The notes below the pieces were generated by a model, which was given only the letters and a program-made list of their open reading frames with translations, was not told where the DNA came from and did no database searches. Source: Xylona heveae TC161 (taxonomy: Eukaryota; Ascomycota; Xylonomycetes; Xylonales; Xylonaceae). From it: a stretch of 64,000 nt of DNA. A program made the translations under genes and the position numbers. This document shows positions 818 to 64,000 of this stretch, piece by piece. Where the stretch lies: contig NW_017264206.1 of assembly GCF_001619985.1 (NCBI RefSeq), forward strand, positions 1 to 64,000. The letters run 5' to 3'. The number at the start of each line of letters is the position of its first letter. Within the stretch, counting starts at the first letter, position 1.

Positions 818-1881
818 CGCTTCTCTCTAGCGCCAAAATCCCCAAACCCCACGATATCTCCCCCAAAATCCCAACTTTGGAGCGACATAGATCAGGATCC
901 AGCGGTCGCAATCCATTTTTAAATGCATGGCGATGCTCAGGGAGCTTGGGATTAGACTTGGTGCAATTTTCAGCCAATTCCACCTCCGAAGGTTGTTGTT
1001 GAACGACTGGCCTTTTGGCAAACCTGAACCGGAATTTTCGACTTGGGAATATAATCTCTCGAGATTTGCAAGATCAAAGCCTTGGTGTCTTGCTCTCCGC
1101 ATCTGAACTCCACAAAAAACGACTTGATCGACTCCAGGTCCATGAGCCGGGCTGAAGGATTAAGAAACAGAGTTTTGCATCAACATGGCATAAGAGAATC
1201 ATGGCGTATTTTCGCCGGGCCAGATCTTTGTGGGGTAGACCCCGTGGGGACCCCAACCATCATCATGACCGATTCTAGAGATCAACCACTCTCATGGTAC
1301 AGGAAGTCGGTAAAATTGAAATTGATGTGCAAGTCATGGCTTTTTGTCAAACAAAATGGCCTAGACAGAATTGGTGTTGAGTTTCGAGTTTAGTGGCACG
1401 ACTTGAAGTCTATAATGGGATGTACGACGAGGCTATCGATGCTAGCGGCGGGAAGGTTGGCCAATCGCAGGATTGTTCGCTGGATTAATCGCAGCATTAA
1501 CCGCAGCAATTCTCGCAACAATATATCTCAGGCTACTCTGCTCCATTAGCCGGCAAAAGTGTTGTGGGGAATTGATCACTTGCACTGACAGAGCTTACGA
1601 CCCCGCGACGAATTTGCCATTTCATGCCCAAAAAAAGAATGGCTACCCCGCTATAACTCAGCACAGATTTGGTTACGTCTCTGCAATACTCTGCCATCGT
1701 CATGCTATTGGAGCTATTGTTGGCGGACTGCTGTTGACATTTAGGGTTCAGAGGACTGGGCACCCTGTATATAGAAATACCCTGATATCCCAGGGCCAGA
1801 CTGACCAGATTGTGAGTGATAGTATTTTTTGTTTCTTAACCCTCTTGCGTATTTTGAGGGTTGAGCCCTACATTTGTTAAC
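818..1881. other. No confident gene; upstream region of the GH31 gene
   Basis: Several open frames of 60-135 codons exist on both strands but none resembles a family I know, and the longest plus-strand frame (1473-1880) starts at TTG and has no start context. The last few hundred bases are presumably promoter and leader of the GH31 gene starting at 1882. Confidence 0.5.
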
Positions 1882-4425
1882 ATGAACCGCTACACCTTTC
1901 CCAGCAGGCCCAAAGCCAACCCCAAGGCCATCGTCTCTGGTACAAACTATCGCTTCACCGTCCTCACTGATCGCCTGATTCGATACGAATGGGCAGAGGA
2001 TGGTAGATTTCAGGACCAAGCTTCCACGTTTGCAATCAACCGTGAATTTCCCAGACCCGAATTCAAAGTCGTCGATAGGGACGACCTCGAAATCATCACC
2101 GAACATTTCCACCTGAGCTATGACAAGAAGCGATTTAGCCCTGGTGGTCTAGTCGTCAACTTCAATGCCAAAATTACCGAGTGGGGGGCCACGTGGCGTT
2201 TTGGCGCACCGCCAGAACTCAACTTAGATTCCAATCTGGGAGGCACTGCCAGAACGCTGGACCTTTGCGACGGACGTTGTGATATAGGCCAGGGAGTGCT
2301 GTCCAGAGGTGGCTATGCTGAACTTGATGATTCAAAGTCTATGCTCTTCGACGGCAAAGGTTTTGTTGCAAACAGACCAGCCGGAGACCGGGTCGATGGC
2401 TATCTCTTTTGTTACGGTCTCGACTATAAAGCGGCAATAAAAGCATTCTACGCTCTTTCTGGTAAACAACCCGTCTTGCCTCGCTATGCCTTGGGCAATT
2501 GGTGGAGCAGGTATTACGCATATCAGCAGGACGAGTACATTGAACTCATGGACGACTTTCGGGCCCGAGATATCCCATTCTCTGTGGCTGTCATCGACAT
2601 GGACTGGCATCTAGTATCCGACGAGCGCGTGCCACATGCTGGTTGGACTGGGTACACGTGGGACGACAAGCTGATCCCTGAACCGAAACGATTTGGACGG
2701 GAACTGCACGACAGAAACGTGAAGATCACCTTGAACGACCATCCACACGCTGGCATCCACTCCCACGAGAAGCCATATGAAGAAATGGCTCGTTTCCTTG
2801 GCCATAGTACTAAAGACAAGAACCCGATTCTCTTTGATTGCACCGGCCCTAAATTTCTGGAGGCTTACTTCGGGATCCTGCACCGCAGCCTCGAAAAAGT
2901 AGCATGTGACTTCTGGTGGATCGACTGGCAACAGGGAGCTTACTCTAAGGTCCCCGGCATTGATCCCTTGTGGATGCTTAACCATTTCCACTACGTTGAT
3001 CATGCACTCCAGGGTAATACGCCACTCATATTCTCAAGGTATGCAGGGCCAGGAAGTCATCGCTACCCAGTGGGATTTTCTGGTGACACGGTGGTAACCT
3101 GGGCCTCGCTCCAATTCCAGCCAGAGTTCACCGCTACAGCATCAAACATTGGGTACGGTTGGTGGAGTCACGATATTGGTGGGCATATTTTTGGTGCTCG
3201 AGACGATGAACTCGTCACACGATGGTTCCAGCTTGGTGTCTTCTCACCCATCATGCGACTCCATTCATCAAATAGCCGCTGGATGTCCAAGGAGCCGTGG
3301 CTGTACCGCAAAGAGTGCGAACGGGTGATGACCGGGTTCCTCCGGTTCAGACACAGAATGGTGCCATATCTCTACACAAGAAACGTCATTTGTTCCACCG
3401 ACGATGAGCCTCTGATACAGCCATTATACTGGTCGTATCCGGGTTGTGAGGAGGCTTATTCGTTTCCCAATCAATATTTTTTCGGAAATGAACTCGTAGT
3501 TGCACCTATTGTGCAGCCCCGAGACCAGCGCACCGGCCTTGCATCAGTCAAGGCCTGGCTACCGCCTCTCCAACGCCATGTCGACATTTTCACCGGGACC
3601 ATCTACGACGGAGATGCCGAAGTGACTCTCTACCGAACTCTTGAGAATTATCCAGTCTTGGCTCACGAGGGATCGATAATACCCCTGGACGCTGATGCTG
3701 CTCCTAGAAATGGCTGTCTGAATCCGGATGCCTTTGAAGTTCTTGTCGTCATTGGTCGAAATGGTCAAGCCGTTGTCTTGGAAGATTCCGGGGATGACGC
3801 ATCGCTCCATAGCGGGGTTCATAAAGGCCTCCCGAACGGAGTGCGGAACGGAGTCTCGAATGGAGTATCGAATGGAATGCCAAAGGAAGTGATGAACGGT
3901 CTACAGAAGCCCTCAAGAGCCCAATTCAACGGCCAACGCCGCTCAACGATCCAGTACACTCAAGCAGTCGGAAAGTTAACCGCCACCGTAACTGCGGGCC
4001 GAACCTGGTCATTCCGCTTTCTAGCCGTGACCTCCATTCCAAAAGATCTCAAAGTACTCGTCAACGGCACTGATCGTACATCTGACACTGTTGCACTTGT
4101 CGAGAATTTCCCGAAGACACCTAGTCTACTCGTACAGTTTCCCTCCGGCTCTGCGAGATCTGGGAATACCTACGAGATTGCTATCGAGCTCGGACCCAAC
4201 CCACAGCTCAGTGTGATCGACCACAAGCCACGCATTGAGCACCTGATCATGGGTTATCAGACTGAGTTCAAGGTCAAGGATCAGCTTTGGGAAGTCGTGG
4301 AGAATCTGGGAAAACGCGCACTTAATGTTACTGTGGCGAGATTGATGGCGTTGGGATATGATGAGGGTATCATTGGTCCGATTGCGGAGTTGCTCTTGGC
4401 TGATAGCCGGGTGATCTCTTCCTAG
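1882..4425 (+). CDS. Glycoside hydrolase family 31 (alpha-glucosidase/alpha-xylosidase-like)
   Basis: Single-exon gene of 847 codons. The first ATG (1882) is used; the open frame extends a few codons upstream only through a TTG. The GH31 catalytic barrel is clear: a WWIDWQQG motif carries the predicted nucleophile (Asp348), a GFSGDT motif carries the predicted acid/base (Asp402), and GYGWWSHDIGG and MRLHSSN blocks follow. There is no signal peptide, so the enzyme is probably intracellular. Near residues 648-675 sits a low-complexity linker with repeated Asn-Gly units, before the C-terminal beta domains. The family hydrolyses or transfers alpha-linked glycosyl units; the sequence alone does not fix glucose, xylose or another substrate. 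The DWQQ nucleophile motif differs from the WIDMNE of classical alpha-glucosidases and marks another subgroup. Confidence 0.9.
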   Translation: MNRYTFPSRPKANPKAIVSGTNYRFTVLTDRLIRYEWAEDGRFQDQASTFAINREFPRPEFKVVDRDDLEIITEHFHLSYDKKRFSPGGLVVNFNAKITEWGATWRFGAPPELNLDSNLGGTARTLDLCDGRCDIGQGVLSRGGYAELDDSKSMLFDGKGFVANRPAGDRVDGYLFCYGLDYKAAIKAFYALSGKQPVLPRYALGNWWSRYYAYQQDEYIELMDDFRARDIPFSVAVIDMDWHLVSDERVPHAGWTGYTWDDKLIPEPKRFGRELHDRNVKITLNDHPHAGIHSHEKPYEEMARFLGHSTKDKNPILFDCTGPKFLEAYFGILHRSLEKVACDFWWIDWQQGAYSKVPGIDPLWMLNHFHYVDHALQGNTPLIFSRYAGPGSHRYPVGFSGDTVVTWASLQFQPEFTATASNIGYGWWSHDIGGHIFGARDDELVTRWFQLGVFSPIMRLHSSNSRWMSKEPWLYRKECERVMTGFLRFRHRMVPYLYTRNVICSTDDEPLIQPLYWSYPGCEEAYSFPNQYFFGNELVVAPIVQPRDQRTGLASVKAWLPPLQRHVDIFTGTIYDGDAEVTLYRTLENYPVLAHEGSIIPLDADAAPRNGCLNPDAFEVLVVIGRNGQAVVLEDSGDDASLHSGVHKGLPNGVRNGVSNGVSNGMPKEVMNGLQKPSRAQFNGQRRSTIQYTQAVGKLTATVTAGRTWSFRFLAVTSIPKDLKVLVNGTDRTSDTVALVENFPKTPSLLVQFPSGSARSGNTYEIAIELGPNPQLSVIDHKPRIEHLIMGYQTEFKVKDQLWEVVENLGKRALNVTVARLMALGYDEGIIGPIAELLLADSRVISS

Positions 4426-49860: not shown

Positions 49861-51880
49861 TTAGACAGCACCCTTCTCAATCATCTTCTTCCGGAGGTGG
49901 TTCTTGTATTGACCAATACTGCCGTCCCATCGGGTAACCGTCTTGTTCTCGCAGACCATAATGTCCTTGGCAATCTTGTCAAGCAATCTAAGAGGTGATT
50001 AGTAAAATGGTCACAAAAAAAAAAAGCAGAGATTGAGCGCATTTGCTTACCTGAAGTCGTGAGAGACGACAACAACACCACCGCTGAAGGCGTTGATGGC
50101 GTCGGCCAAACTGTCAATGGTGGGAATATCAAGACCGTTGGTCGGCTCGTCGAGCAAAAGCATGTTTGGTCCGTCAATGGCCAACAGAGCGAAGACGATT
50201 CTGCTCTTCTGACCCTCAGACAGAGTACCCATCAAGGCGGTCTGGGCCTCTCCGGTCAGACCATAACGGCCGAGCTGCTGACGCCAGTACTGGTAGTCCT
50301 GAGACTTGAAACCATACTTGTCGCGCACAAAGTCGAGAGCGCACTTGGTGAGATCGAGCTGATCAGCAGAGTGCTGGCTGTAGATACCCAACTTCAAGTG
50401 GGTGTGACGAGAGACGTTGCCGGAAGTGGGGGAAAGGTGACCGGTCATGATACGAAGGAGAGTCGACTTGCCGACACCATTGGGGCCGACAAGAGCAGTA
50501 CGGGAATCCATGTCGACACCCAAGTCGAGATGCTCATACAAGTTGTCCTCGGCCTTGCCAGAGTATGAGAAGGTAACATCATCGAAGGAAAGGACGGGAG
50601 GGGGAAGCTTCTCGACATCGGCAAAACGGAAGGTGAAGACCTTGTCCGGCTGCACAGGCTGGATGAAGCCATCGGCCTCCATCTTGTCCAGAATCTTCTG
50701 ACGAGACTTGGCTTGACGGACAAGATTGGCATAAGTACCGGCGGAAGCAATGAACTTCTTGATGTGCTGAATTTCTTCCTGCTGCTTGGCGTACGCCTTC
50801 ATCTGGTTCGTCTCCTGCTCGGAGCGAGTCTTGTGGTAAGAGTCGTAGTTACCACCATAGTAGAGGAGCTGCTTCATGCGCATGTCAATCATGTTGGTGC
50901 AGACACCGTTGAGGAAGTCCATGGAGTGAGAGACGAGAACCAATGTACGGTCCCACTTCTTCAGATACTCTTCCAGCCACACGCACGCCTCGAGGTCAAG
51001 ATGAGCAGTGGGGTCGTCCAAAAGAAGCAATGAAGGCTTGACGAAGAGGGCCTTTCCAAGGGCCACACGCATACGCCAACCACCAGACATGTCCTTGGTC
51101 TTCTTGTTGATGGTGTTCTTGTTGAAACCGAGACCGGTCAAGATCAAGGAGGCACGGGTGTGGAAAGTTTGAGGGTCCATGGTTTCCATGCGCTGCAACT
51201 CGTCAGCAACTTGTTGCATTCAACCGCAAGACAAAAAAAAACGATTTTCGTCTTACCTCATAAAGGTCTTCAAGGATAGGGCTTTCAGGACCCTCATTTT
51301 CGAGAACCTCTTCGGCTTGTCTCTCAAGACGAGCCAACTCGTTCTCTGCCTCCCTGACAACCCAGTCAAGGGCACCAAAATCGGTGGGGGGAGCACCTTC
51401 GTTCAGAAGGTAGATATCAATGTGTTCGGGGACAGGGAACTCTCGCTTAGAGATGGACTTCAGAAGGGTGGACTTGCCGCAGCCGTTCTCACCCAAAAGA
51501 CCATATCTTCTGCCATAGTTGAGTTCGAGAGTGCTGTCGTTGAAAAGGACCTTGCCGTGGAAGACCAAGGAAGCGGAAGTGATTTTGGCATCACGGCTGG
51601 CAGGCAGAGAAGCCAGCACACCGGTGGTAACACGGTCGGAGATACCTTCGTCGTCTTCCTGCAGGGTCAACTTCTTGATACCCTCAAGCTTCGCAGCCGA
51701 GGTTGCTGGCTGTTCAGACTCGGGAAGGGGGTTGCCATCGGCGTCAAGCAGAGGCTCGTCACCGTTGACAGAAGAGGCCTTGGAGGCGGCCTTGGAAGAC
51801 AGTCTGGAAGTGGTGGTCTTCTTCTTCTCACCACCGTCGGCACGCTTGGCCTGACGAGCTGCTTTGGAGGCTGAAACCAT
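49861..51880 (-). CDS. arb1: ABCF ATPase Arb1 (ribosome biogenesis)
   Basis: Three exons (51880-51257, 51192-50051, 49987-49861) give 630 codons. There are two ATP-binding cassettes and no membrane segments: [15 protein letters not shown] and [15 protein letters not shown] (Walker A), [16 protein letters not shown] and [15 protein letters not shown] (signatures), [12 protein letters not shown] and [12 protein letters not shown] (Walker B). The first Walker B has Asp in place of the usual catalytic Glu and AHLD for NHLD. A basic Ala/Lys/Ser-rich N-terminus fits the ABCF2/Arb1 subgroup, which works in 40S and 60S ribosome assembly and export. The start ATG at 51880 gives [14 protein letters not shown]. 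Confidence 0.93.
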
Positions 51881-52532
51881 CTTTAATGCGTTGTGGAGTA
51901 CAAGCAACGAAAGAAAGAGGGAGGAGTAGACTGTGTCGTGGGTGTAGGTTGAAAAAGGCGAATTGGGTGGGGTCGTAATATAGCCTTATCGATTGGCGTG
52001 GCGGTCCAGCGCCCTTAAGATTTTTGCGAGGAAAAAAGCTGGAAATGACGTTGTGGGAAGGAGGGAAGGAGGAGGAAAGGAATAAAAATTTGAATGCTGC
52101 AAGAGTTCTGCTCTGCAAAACCCCCTCTTTTTTTCAATTATTTGGAAATGAAGATAAAAAGGACGAAGGAGTCTTCGAATGCCTTTGTCGTATTGTTTTT
52201 AAAACCCAATCGTAAAAGACTTTTTTTTCTCTTTTCTTTCTTCTTGTTGGCCAACCATGACATCACGTGACGAGTTTGCCACTGGGCACTTCGGTTGTGT
52301 GCGGTCAGGGGGCTTGTACCCGCTACCGGTCCCTTTGGCTTTCAGCTTTTCCCCGATGCCACCAAGGCACCCAAGGTTTAACTATAACTCCGAGTACTTT
52401 TAGGGGCGAAACGGAGAATATCGGATGAATATCCAAGGATGAAGCTCGGCCGGGGTAGAACATTCAATTTCTGACGACTCTAAATCTCTGATGATTTGAA
52501 TAGATATTCCACTATCACTCTACAACACAATG
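51881..52532. other. arb1 promoter region; TCACGTGA at 52263-52270
   Basis: Contains pyrimidine-rich promoter sequence, a TCACGTGA palindrome and, next to it, TTTGCCACT. Right end is the 3' region of the O-methyltransferase gene. No gene seen. Confidence 0.45.
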
Positions 52533-53527
52533 TTATATCTCCTCCCTTATACACCTTGTAATCTCGATGCCATCCTGTGGGAAAGGTCAGTCGAAGCTTG
52601 GCTAGCCCAGCGAGTCATTATGACTTACAGGCTCTCCGGTGGGTTCATAACTTGGCACAAGACGACTCTCGTAAACAAGCTTTGGATTCCCTTTGACTGA
52701 ATCGTCAAATTTTTCGTTGCCTTCGCGGTTCGAATATTGATGTGATGTCCTCTCTGCAAACCCTGCATTGAAATTCTGCATAGTCTGGCCACTTTGAAGT
52801 GCGCCCAGTTTTGCTTCAACAGTACTACGGACATACTCCAGGTATGGTGGATTGCCCGGCTTGATGACGTTGTCGGCTGCTAGGATCGAGCCAGGTTTCA
52901 CGAGGCCAAGCTCCTCACACAGCTTGAGATCAGTCGTATAGGCAGGTTTGTAATGATCCAGAAACATCAGGTCAATATGTTGCAGTCGACGCTCCGAATG
53001 CAATCGCCGCAACGAATCAGCGCTCGGCCCAACCACAACTTTGACGACATCACTCAAACCCGCGAGGTCGACAAGTGACAAGATCACCGCACCAAACACT
53101 GGATCTCGCTCAAGGCTGAAATACCGCTTGCCTCCAGCTTCACGCAAAGCTTCACCAAATAGAATTGCAGAGTAACCCACATAGCCACCTAACTCAACCA
53201 TGACTGTCGGCCGGCTTTCTGAGATGAGCCTTGTCACAATTTTGCCCTTATCCTCCCCCACATTCATCAGATATCTTTGGGTTCGGGCGTATTCGTCGAT
53301 GACTTTCAGGACTCCTTTTGGCTTTCCCCGAATCTCAGATACAGACGGATGATTGTATACAAATCGAAGCAATTCGGTCTCCCGACCATCATCAAACTTC
53401 CATGCTCGTCAGCTTCAAATCATTGCCAAAATTTCAAAGACGCACAACTCACAAAGCTACCGGTACCCTTCTTGACGTATGCCTTTTGTGAATCAAACGA
53501 AGAGGTCTCGCTGGTTGACGCAGCCAT
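52533..53527 (-). CDS. O-methyltransferase (COMT fold), MysB-like candidate
   Basis: Three exons (53527-53453, 53396-52629, 52574-52533) give 294 codons. Class I catechol-O-methyltransferase features are clear: TVMVELGGYVGYSAILFGEAL (SAM motif I), FSLERDPVF (acidic residue for the ribose), IDLMFLDHYKPAYTTDL and ILAADNVIKPGNPPYL, where the Asp of FLDHYK and the Asp-Asn of ADNV would hold Mg2+. The last exon encodes only DGIEITRCIREEI. It diverges from the sugar-phosphate cyclase gene across 1.26 kb and lies near an ATP-grasp gene. In cyanobacterial mycosporine synthesis an O-methyltransferase (MysB) turns demethyl-4-deoxygadusol into 4-deoxygadusol. That assignment rests on context; the fold alone fits many phenolic substrates. 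Confidence 0.88.
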
Positions 53528-54785
53528 ACTGTTTATGCAAGTTTGGTGGATAAGCTTGAGCCAAAATTATTCTTGAGAAACAACTACTGCTAAAATATCC
53601 GAATAGTAAACCCAAGTGTAGGGCAAAACATCACATGACAGAATGCTACTAGACGTATGTTTACATTAATCGAGAAGATGCTCCCTTCTCAAACCAATTG
53701 GCATTGACAAGACATGGTGAGCTGGAGAGATTGTTATGACTCCAGGAAGATTGTGGGGGAGTTGGAGAGATCTGGACACTTAACCAGATTTAGGATAGCG
53801 AGGGGCGCCAAGAGTGACGGTCAAGATGATGATTTCATCCTTAATTCAGGAACAACACTCCTGTCTTCTCACCACCCCAAAACACGGCTCTAAATGTTAA
53901 TGTCATTATGAGCCCAAAATAAATAGAGCTGTCTATTACGTGATTACACTGCCTTGGTCGAGAGCCTCATAAACTAATGGACTACGCAGATGGTACAGGG
54001 ATCTTCGGCCATGGGTTGCCCCAGCGAGGTCGTCTCATGAAGTCACGTTGCTCTATGTCTGGCATAGTATCACTTATTATACAAAGGCGCCCCTGGTTTA
54101 GCACAAATTGGTGCTTCGACGGTTCATTCTGAGTTGGATCTACCCGGCGAGATCTGACATGGCCTGATCTCCTTTCCAAACCGATGGCGCAATTCATCCC
54201 CTTGCGGGGTTCAAAAATTTGAGGTGACGCCAACGATTATCCCATGGGGAATCAAACGCAATTCATGATCTTGCTTCCTTAGCTCACATTGGCTCAAACT
54301 CAACATGGCATGCCTGTTGCGCCTTCAGTTCAATGACCTTTCCAACTACACCAATCAGAACCATAGCAGTGTTCACATGTGTGTGCTACGCTAGGAAACA
54401 GCGTAAAACCTAGTATCCGAGTCGTCCTGTGCGTGACTGGATTTGCAAAATGGAGGCAGCAGCTTATACAGTTACGGGAGGGCACTTGGTGTAGCACGAG
54501 CTTCCGTGCTCCAAGTCTGCTGGTCGCAGAACCTTGACTTGATTGCGGGGAAATGGCCTTGTTTTCCCAAACTTTCGTTTCACCATTCATGGCACTAATT
54601 CTTTGTCAAAAGAAGCAGATTCGGATGATGCGAGTGATGTGGTAATAGACGCTCGAATTGACGTGTGCTCCCACATTTCTGGTTCCCAAGGATGAATCTT
54701 TCATGATTTATAAGACGCGCCTTTTCATTGAGAATTTGTTTCATTTGCAAACGGATCGCATATTTCGCTTCTTTCTTTATGCACC
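53528..54785. other. Bidirectional promoter of the mycosporine-type genes
   Basis: A 1.26-kb spacer between the divergent O-methyltransferase and cyclase starts. No open frame longer than about 86 codons, and none is supported. No decayed gene recognised. It is the natural place for shared control of the two genes. Confidence 0.5.
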
Positions 54786-56407
54786 ATGTCAGACCTCAAG
54801 GCGTCAGTTACAGCGACCAAGGCTGGCTTTCATGTTGAAGGCTTCGAGAAGATTTCGTACGATTTCACGTTCCTCGATGGCGTATTTGATCCTCGCAATG
54901 AACATCTTGCCAACCTATACAAACAGTGGGGCCGAGCTCTCGCTGTCATGGACTTGAACGTCCATAACCTCTATGGGCAACAGTTGGAGAAGTATTTTGA
55001 TCACTATGGACTTACACTCAAGGTCCACAAGACGAGAATCGGGGAAAAAGCGAAATCGATAGAAACGTTATTGAGCATTGTCGACTCCATGAATGAATTT
55101 GGTATTTTCCGAAAGGTAAGTGTGTCGTTCATTGGCAACCCAGAAGGTCTGGAACTAATTAAACAAGGAACCAGTATTGGTTGTTGGCGGAGGCCTGGTA
55201 ACCGACGTCGCCGGGTGAGTATATCTATTTACTCTCTCATTCGACACGCTTGCTGATAATGTATGTCGATAGCTTTGCATGCGCTGCCTACCGCAGGAAT
55301 ACCAATTACATTCGAATTCCTACCACAGTGATTGGCTTGATTGATGCCTCGGTCTCAATCAAGGTGGCTGTGAACTATGGGAACTACAAGAATCGTCTAG
55401 GTGCATATCATGCTCCAATGCATACCTTCTTGGACTTCACTTTCCTTCGGACGCTACCAACTGCTCAGGTTCGGAATGGCTTTGCTGAGCTTATCAAGAT
55501 TTCTACTTGTTCGCACCTACCGACCTTTGAGCTTTTGGACAGATTCTGCGAGGAAATTATCCAAACGAAATTTGGTCGAGCAAACGGAGCCTCCCCAGCA
55601 GTGCGCGAAGCTTCTGATATGATAAACCGCGATGGAATCCACGAAATGCTGAAGCTTGAGACTCCGAATCTTCATGAGATTGGATTGGACAGAGTGATTG
55701 CGTATGGTCATACGTATGGCTAAACTGCTTGTCCTTGGTTTTCATCAGCTAACATGTGTAGATGGTCTCCGATGCATGAACTTGTTCCTGACGTTCCGTT
55801 GAGACATGGTCACGCTATTTCTATTGACATGGCGTACTCTGCGACGCTAGCGAACAGTCGAGGCCTCATTTCTGACGATGAGCACACCAGACTTTTACGC
55901 CTGTTCTCGCGCGCAGGGCTATCAATGGACCACTTTCAATTCGATGAGCAGTTGCTCGAGAAAGCGACCGCAGCTATCCTCCGTACACGAGATGGGAAAC
56001 TGCGCGCTGCTGTACCACATCCACTCGGATCATGCATCTTTTTGAATGACGTGTCGACCGAGGAGATGAAGGCAGCTCTGAGGCGCCACAAGGCTCTCAT
56101 GAAAGAGTATCCCAGACATGGTGAGGGTATCGAAGCGTTTGTGGACGCGAGCGATACAGGTTACGCTGAGGATGGCCAAGTCGAGACGTCTAAATCCTCG
56201 ATTGCCGCAGCCGGCCATGACGGAATCAATGGCATTGGAGATCAATCCCATAGTTCCGCTGACGGCAATCTCATCGACGGCCAGAAGATTCCGAGAGACA
56301 ACGTCATCAATGGTGGGCCGTCTCGTGGTTTGAACAACCCTATCAAAGATAACATCAAGGGGATGCGCCCGGAAACGAAGAGCTTGACAGATGGAATCAA
56401 GGCGTAA
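54786..56407 (+). CDS. Sugar-phosphate cyclase, DDGS/EEVS-type (MysA-like)
   Basis: Four exons (54786-55115, 55168-55214, 55273-55713, 55762-56407) give 487 codons. It is homologous to dehydroquinate synthase: [22 protein letters not shown] (NAD-binding), [47 protein letters not shown] and the metal-ligand segments VIAYGHTWSPMHEL and [14 protein letters not shown]. Replacement of DHQS residues by SPMHEL and the AYHAP block are features of the cyclases that use sedoheptulose 7-phosphate, i.e. desmethyl-4-deoxygadusol synthase or 2-epi-5-epi-valiolone synthase. With an O-methyltransferase and an ATP-grasp ligase adjacent, the DDGS role (first step to mycosporines) is favoured. The pentafunctional AROM supplies DHQS in fungi, so this is not needed for shikimate. 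About 100 C-terminal residues, Gly/Asn/Ser-rich, exceed the family core. Confidence 0.9.
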
Positions 56408-56843
56408 ATCACCATGTAGTAGTTGTATCGTAATGAAAGCACGAACGCATATTTATCTTAGAGAGACGTAGAAAAAGACAAAAAAAAAGTTAACAAAGCT
56501 ATCGATTACTAGGATATACACCGAGTACTTCCAAGCGATTTAATGTGCGTTTGTATAGAGAATAGAAATGTTGTCCATATCCTCAGTCTCGACATAGAAT
56601 GATTTCTTCCCAAAATCTACTGGAATACCTATGCCTACCAGATGCACTGATTTGTAGTCATCCCCGCAAGATACTATATATATTGCGGTGTGTTGGGTTC
56701 GTCAAAAATTGTCATGACGTATTACACCTCAATGCCACGTCCATCCTTTCAGGTAAACAACGTTTGCAATTTCTTGGTTATATCTTCGCACCTGAAAGTC
56801 CATATGTAATCTGCAGCTTAGAGCGCAGGTTCATGAAACAAAG
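56408..56843. other. Intergenic between cyclase and ATP-grasp genes
   Basis: Promoter of the ATP-grasp gene; nothing else seen. Confidence 0.5.
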
Positions 56844-58325
56844 ATGCTGTCGCACGACTCGCCATGGCATCGACATTATTTTCAAAATGCCGCCCTGATA
56901 TTCTTGAGTGTTTTGTTTCTTCCTTTCGATACTTTTGTTCTATTTTTGAGCTATGCATTGCATTTCACCTTTACGTTTGTTTTGAGGCGCAATGAAGGCA
57001 AAAGCAAAGTCCCCTCCGTTCCTTGTACCGTACTTATCACCGGCGTTGGCATGGCAAAAGGATTGGCACTCGCCCGCATCTTCCATCGAGTCGGACACAA
57101 GGTCATTGGAGCGGACTTTGCCTCAAATGGCATATCGGCCAGTGGCAGATTTTCAAGGGCTTTGTGTGGATTCTATACGTTGACCAAGCCTGTTGACAAG
57201 GCCAGCTCAGAACAGTATGTGCAGGATCTTATCGCAGTCACAAGGAAAGAAGGGGTAGATCTTTGGGTGAGCTGCTCTGGAGTTGCGTCTGCTGTGGACG
57301 ATGGGATTGCAAAAGAAGTGGTAGAGAGGCATACCAAATGCAAAGCGATTCAGCATGATGCCGAGACTACACGAATGCTCCACGAGAAGTACACCTTCAT
57401 CGAGGAGACGAGAAGCCTGGGGTTGACTGTTCCAGAAACGCACATTGTGACTTCTCACGAGAGTGTAATGGCTATTCTGCGGGATGCCGACAAGAAGAGA
57501 TATATTATGAAACCAGTCGGAATGGACGATGCGAATCGAGGAGATATGACACTTCTTCCTCGCGCTACAGCAGATGAAACAAGCCGGCATTTGTCGAATC
57601 TCGCCATCTCGGAAGATCAACCATGGGTGCTGCAGCAGTTTATTCGCGGAGGAGAGTATTGCACGCACGCACTAGTCATCAACGGCCATGTTGAAGCGTT
57701 CGTTGCCTGTCCATCCGCAGAGCTGCTCATGCATTACGAAGCCCTCGATGCAGGCTCGGCGATAAGTCAGGCAATGCTTCGGTTCACTCAAGAGTTTGTT
57801 CGGAGAGCAGAAGGATCCATGACAGGCCATCTTTCGTTCGATTTCTTGGTTCAATCTAATGTGACGAAGAAGGGCTCCGAAGATATTTTGTATCCCATTG
57901 AATGCAATCCTCGAGCGCATACTGCTGTTGTGTTGTTTCGGGGCTTAGACACCAAGCTTGCTGAGCGGTACCTGCTCTGTCTTTCTCCAGGCGTCGTTTC
58001 ATTGAACGGCCATGATAATACACCTCTGATTCCACGTCAACCGCTACAATATTATTGGGTTGGCCATGACTTGGTCAGCTTGATTTTACAACCTTTATTT
58101 CGCTTTTCGACAGGCACTGCTCGTACGGGCGACACGTTTTATGGCGTTGCTCTCTTCTTGCAACGGCTGGCCACGTGGAAGGACGGCACGTATGAAGTTT
58201 GGGATCCATTACCATGGTGGTGGTTATACCACGTGTACTGGCCGGGGCAGTTTCTGAGCGCCATCCTGCAGCGGCAGAAATGGAGCCGGATTAATGTGAG
58301 CACGACCAAAATGTTTGCTTGCTAG
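56844..58325 (+). CDS. ATP-grasp ligase, MysC-like
   Basis: Single-exon gene of 493 codons. After a hydrophobic N-terminus (about residues 14-50, one or two membrane-type segments) comes VLITGVGMAKGLALARIFHRVGHKVIGAD, the N-terminal pre-ATP-grasp fold. The ATP-grasp core shows RYIMKPVGMDDANRGDM (nucleotide-binding Lys), WVLQQFIRGGEYCTHALV, GHLSFDFLV and YPIECNPRAHTAVVLF (Mg2+-binding Glu and Asn). In cyanobacteria MysC couples 4-deoxygadusol with glycine to give mycosporine-glycine; the fungal enzyme may use glutamine, glutamate, alanine or another amine. It follows the cyclase in the same direction after 436 bp. Substrate cannot be read from the sequence. Confidence 0.88.
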   Translation: MLSHDSPWHRHYFQNAALIFLSVLFLPFDTFVLFLSYALHFTFTFVLRRNEGKSKVPSVPCTVLITGVGMAKGLALARIFHRVGHKVIGADFASNGISASGRFSRALCGFYTLTKPVDKASSEQYVQDLIAVTRKEGVDLWVSCSGVASAVDDGIAKEVVERHTKCKAIQHDAETTRMLHEKYTFIEETRSLGLTVPETHIVTSHESVMAILRDADKKRYIMKPVGMDDANRGDMTLLPRATADETSRHLSNLAISEDQPWVLQQFIRGGEYCTHALVINGHVEAFVACPSAELLMHYEALDAGSAISQAMLRFTQEFVRRAEGSMTGHLSFDFLVQSNVTKKGSEDILYPIECNPRAHTAVVLFRGLDTKLAERYLLCLSPGVVSLNGHDNTPLIPRQPLQYYWVGHDLVSLILQPLFRFSTGTARTGDTFYGVALFLQRLATWKDGTYEVWDPLPWWWLYHVYWPGQFLSAILQRQKWSRINVSTTKMFAC

Positions 58326-62198: not shown

Positions 62199-64000
62199 CT
62201 AGTTTGAACAAGGACATGTCTCGATCCAGTTCCAGATCCGCCGAAAATGCTCATCGTCTATCGGGTTGACAGTGCGCATCGTATGTGAGATCTTTTCTGC
62301 GCAAAGGGTATCGAAGTGTGGAGTCTCCCGTGGTTCGGGGTGTTGAGGAGCGGCGTACTGGGTGTATTAGCTTCCACGACCCAGAAAGAAGTTTAGGGAT
62401 AAATGTAGGGACAGGGACGGGAATAGAACAGGAAGAGGGAGAGGAATAGGAACAGGAATAGAAAAAGAAAATAAGGGTGGAAAGGAATAGGAATAGGGCA
62501 GAAATACCAAAGATTTCCACAAAGGGAGCAGCTTCCGCGCTGGATGACTACCACGACGACTGGACTCTGTATGCTCATCACCCTGTTCTAGCCTACGCAC
62601 CCATTCATCTGGCGGGAATGCTTCAAACACGACTCCAAACTTTTTCAGCCATGCTAAGAGATCGGACCAGCGCGGATGTTGATGTTTGTTGACGATGTGG
62701 AATACAGGGACTTCTGTGCTCTGGGAAAGGCCGGTTGAGAAGGAGGAACTGATATTCACAATTGCCTTGGCGGCGGTGTCTAGGGGGAGCCAGTCTAGAG
62801 GCTACAACATCCATGGTGGTTAACCGCGGGGAAATCATTTAGGAAGAAGCGCAGAAGATACATGGAAAATGGTCAGAGGAAGGAAGGGACATACCTGATC
62901 AATAGCAGGCAAACCCCCCGTCACGGCGACAGAGCTGAGCATTAGCGGCCAGGCCTCGCTCATGTTCCATATCCCCTTGTCTGTATCACCGCATAGTTGG
63001 CCGATACGAAGAACGGATATCCTTCCGCGTAGACTCGTGTTTTCATGAGCACGATGGCAGATTTTCTCCGCTACCCATTTCGAGCGCGAGTATCCTAGCG
63101 GCGAGGCAGATGATGGCGTGTGGGAAAGGGTCTCCGGGATGATGCCTGTGCTTGGGCGGCTATTTGATACGCTTGCTGTCGAGGAGCAGAAGATGAATCT
63201 TGGTGGTTCAGGGCGTTGAGCTGCAAGTGCAAGAGTGATGAGGTTATGGAGACCTGGAAACGCATGAGCCCTAATGAAAAAGTTTAGGTAGTAGCAATGT
63301 TAGCGGGGTCTAACCGGAAATATGGTCATGAACAAAGCTTGATAGTCTGGCGTTGAAATTGACTGCCCATGCTGCGTGCACGATAAGGGTTGCGGTTTCA
63401 GCAAGTTCTTTATACTCCGGTTTGGACAGGCCAAGAGCTGTATCTGCGAGATCCGTCGGTATGCAGGAGATGCGTGTAACGGATGAATCTATTCGCTTCT
63501 TTGCATGCGCTTCTAGATTTTTGTTGACCCTTTCCAATGCTTTTTCTGGGGTTTTAGCTCGAACAAGGCAGATAATTCTGGATACGTTTTGCATTTGACG
63601 GAATGCATCAAGCAAGTGCGCGCCTAGTGCGCCCGTTGCGCCGGTAAGGATCTGGACTGGTTAGCAGAGAGCTGTGTGACGAGTTGAGGATGCTTACCAC
63701 GACCTCTCCATTTCTAGTGATATTATCATCTCTTCTAGAATGATGGCCAAGTTCAGTACTGGCGCAGCTAAAATCACCGTACTCATCAACTAATTGAAAC
63801 ATCAATTGCTCATCATCATGGGTATTGTCTTTGACAAGACCGTGGCGCCGATCGATAATGTAACTGGCAAGCCTGCAGCAATGTTAGTCCCTTGGACAAA
63901 TCTAGAGAGTACTGGTCTAACCTATCAATCGTGCCACAGTCATAGACTATATTCAGAGGTAAAGACTCTTCAATACCCGGAAGTAAATCCTGTAGATATT
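62199..64000 (-). CDS. NRPS-like enzyme, C-terminal carrier and thioester reductase (partial)
   Basis: The gene enters from the right edge. Exons read 64000-63922, 63872-63698, 63651-63315, 63253-62895, 62801-62508 and 62357-62199. The first part, LLPGIEESLPLNIVYDCGTIDRLASYI, is the end of a carrier-protein domain whose phosphopantetheine Ser lies outside the window. A reductase domain of the extended SDR type follows: ILTGATGALGAHLLDAF (NADPH loop), IICLVRAKT, FIFCSSTASVSN, and GYSRSKWVAEKI with the Tyr and Lys of the active site, then RIGQLCGDTDKG. Such domains release carrier-bound acids as aldehydes or alcohols, as in A-T-R reductases and NRPSs. Adenylation and other domains are not visible. 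Its place 4 kb from the mycosporine-type genes is notable. Confidence 0.85.
62400..62505. repeat. Purine/pyrimidine microsatellite in an intron
   Basis: On the plus strand GGAATAGGAACAGGAATAG-type units with AGGGACAGGGACGGG run for about 100 bp. The tract lies inside the predicted last intron (62358-62507) of the NRPS-like gene; translated it would give an unlikely Pro/Phe/Leu-rich segment. Confidence 0.7.

Follow-up and report, generated by a model that had tools for sequence, protein, structure and literature searches.

Introduction

Mycosporine synthesis has been functionally proven for a three-gene cluster of Phaffia rhodozyma, DDGS-OMT-ATPG, which encodes a desmethyl-4-deoxygadusol synthase (DDGS), an O-methyltransferase (OMT) and an ATP-grasp ligase and was described earlier in PMC5103461. 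In the functional study, mycosporines are lost when the genes are deleted, 4-deoxygadusol builds up in the ligase mutant, and the genes expressed in Saccharomyces cerevisiae yield 4-deoxygadusol or mycosporine-glutaminol (PMC10057719). The same study took its query proteins from Pyrenophora tritici-repentis, Parastagonospora nodorum, Aspergillus clavatus and Magnaporthe (PMC10057719), and hence ascomycete homologues are already in print. A cyanobacterial counterpart is the mysABC set on plasmid AP018319.1 of Nostoc sp. HK-01, where the DDGS, OMT and ligase genes are consecutive and a gene of the D-Ala-D-Ala-ligase type lies downstream of them. Here we examine positions 52533-58325 of a stretch of the Xylona heveae TC161 genome (24.3 Mb in 17 contigs); that stretch, called the window throughout, comprises bases 1-64000 of contig 14 (661,600 bases). 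We conclude that the locus is very probably a cluster for mycosporine biosynthesis in a filamentous ascomycete.

Results

Three intact genes occupy 52533-58325, an OMT gene on the reverse strand and a cyclase and an ATP-grasp ligase gene on the forward strand. Our reading draws on the families to which the three enzymes belong, the identity of the cyclase as DDGS by tree and residues, the intact frames and the clustering, all of which are shown here. Because the Phaffia precedent is functionally proven, the locus can be assigned to a cluster kind that is already known, and the original prediction of a mycosporine cluster finds its support in the same three-gene set making mycosporine in that fungus (PMC10057719). 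The same three gene types lie side by side in both organisms, and DDGS and OMT diverge from an intergenic stretch of 1.57 kb in Phaffia and 1.26 kb in Xylona; the Phaffia cyclase and ligase have 477 and 500 residues, those of Xylona 487 and 493. The two loci differ in that the ligase gene follows OMT in Phaffia and DDGS in Xylona, and in the number of exons in the DDGS, OMT and ligase genes (14, 7 and 6 in Phaffia; 4, 3 and 1 in Xylona; PMC10057719). The Pfam results for the scanned Xylona neighbours include none of the D-Ala-D-Ala-ligase type found downstream in Nostoc, the genome not having been searched for MysD.

Pfam places the cyclase in DHQ_synthase and DHQS_C, and its NCBIfam match too bears a DHQ-synthase name, as would be expected of an extra 3-dehydroquinate synthase (DHQS) of primary metabolism. 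The match to the NCBIfam aroB model, however, stays at 177.5 bits, short of the 305 that its cut-off demands. Among the 16 matches to solved structures the best is 5tpr (489 bits, E 1.1e-145), which we take to be the DDGS of Anabaena and whose table label reads '3-dehydroquinate synthase'. Second is 4p53 at 235 bits, named as the 2-epi-5-epi-valiolone synthase (EEVS) ValA in PMC4426668; the remaining relatives, 3-dehydroquinate synthases, AROM and one 2-deoxy-scyllo-inosose synthase chain, reach at most 108 bits. A grouping within DHQS or EEVS had been named beforehand as refuting the prediction. In a tree of 15 rows (the cyclase trimmed to residues 1-400, several solved-chain rows being partial) the cyclase instead shares a clade, at 100/100, with 5tpr (54% identical) and with its Nostoc HK-01 counterpart (55% identical), apart from DHQS and EEVS.

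The individual residues point the same way. At the 24 columns that split the two DDGS from the four EEVS-type rows, the cyclase carries the DDGS letter 19 times, the EEVS letter never and another letter five times; of the 21 columns that split DDGS from DHQS, 18 show the DDGS letter in the cyclase and none shows that of DHQS. Only 4p53 among the four EEVS-type rows is characterised, the other three being annotated 'sedoheptulose 7-phosphate cyclase', and these counts assign no group to the rows of Streptomyces NBC_00467, Gloeothece and Sodalis. E198, H272 and H288, which occupy the presumed metal-binding positions of the family, do not vary across the alignment. The SPMHEL and AYHAP blocks, which the original prediction had cited as replacing those of DHQS, are both present, and AYHA is DDGS-like, the EEVS ValA having TYHP; SP..E is also found in EEVS, so that SPMHEL argues against DHQS only and is unable to separate DDGS from EEVS.

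That shared motif, and the rank of an EEVS as second-best solved relative, are what would speak for the cyclase being an EEVS and for the locus leading to a gadusol-like or valiolone-derived compound. Set against them are the fully supported DDGS clade, the complete absence of EEVS letters and the gap between 489 and 235 bits, and the methyltransferase-oxidoreductase fusion of vertebrate gadusol synthesis, as given in PMC4426668, does not appear in the Pfam results for those neighbours that were scanned; we consider such an identity extremely unlikely. The probability of an extra DHQS is practically negligible. In addition to the aroB score, the position outside the DHQS clade and the missing DHQS letters, the genome has another DHQ_synthase place, on contig 2, where the same frame continues into a part that by eye resembles 5-enolpyruvylshikimate-3-phosphate synthase, as in AROM. 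The DHQS part of this AROM matches the solved AROM-type chains 6hqv and 1dqs at 551 and 541 bits, and 6c5c and 7u5s at 451 and 447 bits; given the source organisms of these entries, the scores point to a filamentous ascomycete. DHQS is therefore supplied within a separate AROM, as had been anticipated, and the shikimate pathway does not depend on the cyclase of the window. On the aroB score, the solved-structure bits, the tree and the diagnostic columns, both the DHQS and the EEVS identity were rejected; by tree and residues, the cyclase is a predicted DDGS, and the genome shows one such gene. Scanned with the cyclase, a collection of genome contigs returned a single locus; it belongs to a bacterium of the Lachnospiraceae, is 23% identical and was not used. 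Residues 400-487 form an 88-residue C-terminal extension, in which Gly, Asp, Ser and Ile abound, past the end of the 5tpr alignment; the Phaffia cyclase, at 477 residues, is a long one as well.

The ATP-grasp ligase is, as judged from alignments, MysC-like. It is 31% identical to the Nostoc HK-01 MysC over 470 columns (E 4e-65 in a three-sequence comparison), and that MysC is the best of the 12 records it matches in a plasmid collection (207 bits, E 2e-55), the next standing at 110 bits. Queried with MysC, the genome yields the ligase gene at 196.8 bits and one weak, stop-containing place at 17.7 bits; it shows one MysC-like gene. Near residues 15-35 the ligase has a hydrophobic segment, as does the Nostoc MysC at its N-terminus, which suggests that the ligase may be attached to a membrane.

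The third enzyme is where Xylona and Nostoc part. The original prediction equated the three genes with MysB, MysA and MysC, and while this stands for the cyclase and the ligase, the OMT resembles catechol O-methyltransferase (COMT), whereas the Nostoc MysB is like caffeoyl-CoA O-methyltransferase (CCoAOMT). Pfam finds Methyltransf_3 and Methyltransf_24 in the cluster OMT. Its identity to Nostoc MysB is 21% (243 columns) and that to each of two COMTs, 5zy5 (206 columns) and 6aw4 (183 columns), presumably from fission yeast and a mammal, is 40%. Among its 58 matches to solved chains, COMTs come first, 5zy5 at 150 bits (E 4.7e-43) and then others at 138 and less, and the first match not named COMT stands at 57 bits. 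For Nostoc MysB the order is reversed, with OMT and CCoAOMT-like chains at 125 bits and COMT proper at 38.5 at best. A chain labelled 'Catechol-O-methyltransferase', 2avd, which we take to be COMTD1, does match MysB at 102.7 bits and is absent from the 58 matches of the cluster OMT. In a tree of 11 rows, the solved-chain rows being mostly partial, the cluster OMT groups with 5zy5 and 6aw4 at 99/97, and the fork parting MysB from the COMT side is supported at 86/88 only; a methyltransferase from contig 15 is placed there next to the COMT clade, on a long branch that drew a program warning. D172, K175, D200 and N201 align with D141, K144, D169 and N170 of rat COMT, which we assume to be its metal and catalytic positions. 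A MysB-type OMT was accordingly rejected, on its 21% identity to MysB, its COMT best relatives and its COMT clade.

Several of these results weigh against a mycosporine cluster, and we gather them here. DDGS sampling in the cyclase tree is thin, with two other DDGS sequences, 5tpr and that of Nostoc HK-01. Pfam gives no match for the ligase at 0.001, and its score with the NCBIfam model NF005315 (214 bits) lies under the cut-off of 406, which the Nostoc MysC passes with 560. The cluster OMT is, to judge by its alignments, of COMT type and outside the MysB subfamily, and a MysB query of the genome scores a gene on contig 3 above it (39.1 against 24.9 bits). PF01596 occurs at three places in the genome, on contig 3, in the window and on contig 15, and the sole match of the OMT query outside the cluster is the contig 3 gene, at 18.2 bits. 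One could accordingly suppose that the cyclase and ligase build the mycosporine core and that the adjacent COMT is an ordinary methylator of catechols, 4-deoxygadusol being made by another methyltransferase; the low identity to MysB and the slightly closer contig 3 gene would fit. Yet the identity of that gene with MysB is just 28% and covers only part of its length, and the OMT gene diverges from DDGS across 1.26 kb as in Phaffia, where the OMT is required (PMC10057719), so we regard this arrangement as unlikely.

Returning to the three-gene pathway, we infer its substrates, order of steps and product as follows. The cyclase would convert sedoheptulose 7-phosphate to desmethyl-4-deoxygadusol, the COMT-type enzyme would O-methylate the enediol of that compound to give 4-deoxygadusol, and the ligase would spend ATP to couple 4-deoxygadusol with an amino acid or an amino alcohol; the oxo-mycosporine so formed would absorb near 310 nm. 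Desmethyl-4-deoxygadusol bears a catechol-like enediol, which makes a COMT a plausible catalyst of the methylation. A literature search, limited to listings and partial texts, found no statement of a COMT-type OMT in mycosporine clusters. The main text of the Phaffia paper, in the form available, does not contain the word catechol (PMC10057719), and a genome paper on Naganishia has, among its entries for mycosporine synthesis, one from InterPro that bears the name catechol O-methyltransferase (PMC12204325).

The layout of the locus is given in Table 1; all gene models at 52533-58325 have splicing predicted from the sequence only. The boundaries originally proposed are exact, the OMT stop codon ending at 52533 and that of the ligase at 58325, and the predicted arrangement was likewise recovered, with the OMT and cyclase genes divergent and the ligase gene starting 436 bp past the cyclase on the same strand. 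A promoter serving both divergent genes, and with it shared regulation, is suggested by this arrangement alone; the intervening sequence contains two short two-copy repeat families and one inverted pair, possibly by chance. The OMT, cyclase and ligase genes have two, three and no introns, and all five introns start with GT and end with AG. That splice sites are predicted leaves some room for a cluster that is intact and yet silent or non-functional in strain TC161, which we hold to be very unlikely, as the frames are open and the invariant residues of the family are kept. Single-sequence structure models had a mean predicted local distance difference test score of 36.2 for the ligase and 33.7 for the main OMT frame, and were not used.

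Table 1. Features of the putative mycosporine locus (positions in the window)
Feature	Position	Strand	Details
O-methyltransferase gene, COMT-type	52533..53527	-	294 aa; exons 53527-53453, 53396-52629, 52574-52533
OMT-cyclase shared intergenic stretch, candidate bidirectional promoter	53528..54785	.	1,258 bp
DDGS gene (predicted)	54786..56407	+	487 aa; exons 54786-55115, 55168-55214, 55273-55713, 55762-56407
MysC-like ATP-grasp ligase gene	56844..58325	+	493 aa, 1 exon, hydrophobic N-terminal segment
Adenylate-forming reductase (A-T-R) gene, 3' part; possible extension, not claimed as core	62241..64000	-	Pfam frames

Neighbouring genes

To the left of the cluster lies an ATP-binding cassette ATPase gene (frames 50050-51985, reverse strand) without an evident transmembrane part, along with cyclin, methyltransferase, ubiquitin-conjugating-enzyme and proteasomal-ATPase frames. 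To the right of the ligase come a gene without a Pfam match in its one scanned frame and a tetratricopeptide repeat gene. Beyond these two apparently unrelated genes, 3,915 bp from the ligase, an adenylate-forming reductase gene of the adenylation-carrier-reductase (A-T-R) type extends on the reverse strand from about 62241 to about 66200 of contig 14, both ends being approximate; its successive frames match AMP-binding, AMP-binding_C_3, PP-binding and NAD_binding_4, and its adenylation frame has one weak solved relative (E 0.0069). An aldo/keto reductase gene on the forward strand (about 66515-67442 of contig 14) lies some 300 bp past it, the two genes being divergently oriented.

The genome has three AMP-binding_C_3 places and 13 NAD_binding_4 places, two of the latter within the A-T-R gene. 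Were three such genes placed at random, one would fall as near as 3,915 bp in about 0.1% of cases, a figure that overstates the case because it was computed after the gene had been seen and other gene types would also have drawn notice. It is possible, though doubtful, that the locus is larger than three genes, with the A-T-R and aldo/keto reductases making the side chain and the COMT replacing MysB; the reductase pair might then reduce the carboxyl of glutamine or serine to the alcohol, for a glutaminol- or serinol-type side chain. With similar reserve, the pathway may be pictured as a mosaic of cyanobacterial-type and fungal-type enzymes and not as a transferred operon. Against the extension stand the two apparently unrelated genes between the ligase and the A-T-R, and the report that the three Phaffia genes alone give mycosporine-glutaminol in S. 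cerevisiae, as judged by retention in high-performance liquid chromatography (PMC10057719). In the Hypoxylaceae, two families of four clusters each in the set of nonribosomal peptide synthetase (NRPS) and NRPS-like clusters have been linked to mycosporine-like compounds (PMC8403587), a link to be compared with an A-T-R that in Xylona lies 3.9 kb from the ligase, beyond the intervening genes.

Elsewhere in the window, a large frame of glycoside hydrolase family 31 spans 1858-4422, and frames of contig 14 beyond the window resemble another member of that family by eye. 5S rRNA matches occur singly on many contigs, with 38 among the matches listed (980 first-look candidates, 47 of them scored).

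Significance

As we read it, the cluster predicts a sunscreen in Xylona heveae and offers a simple three-gene target. If a COMT-type OMT should prove general in fungi, the methylation step would have been filled separately from that of cyanobacteria. With the reductase pair, should it belong to the pathway, one could test directly where fungal mycosporines obtain their amino-alcohol side chain.

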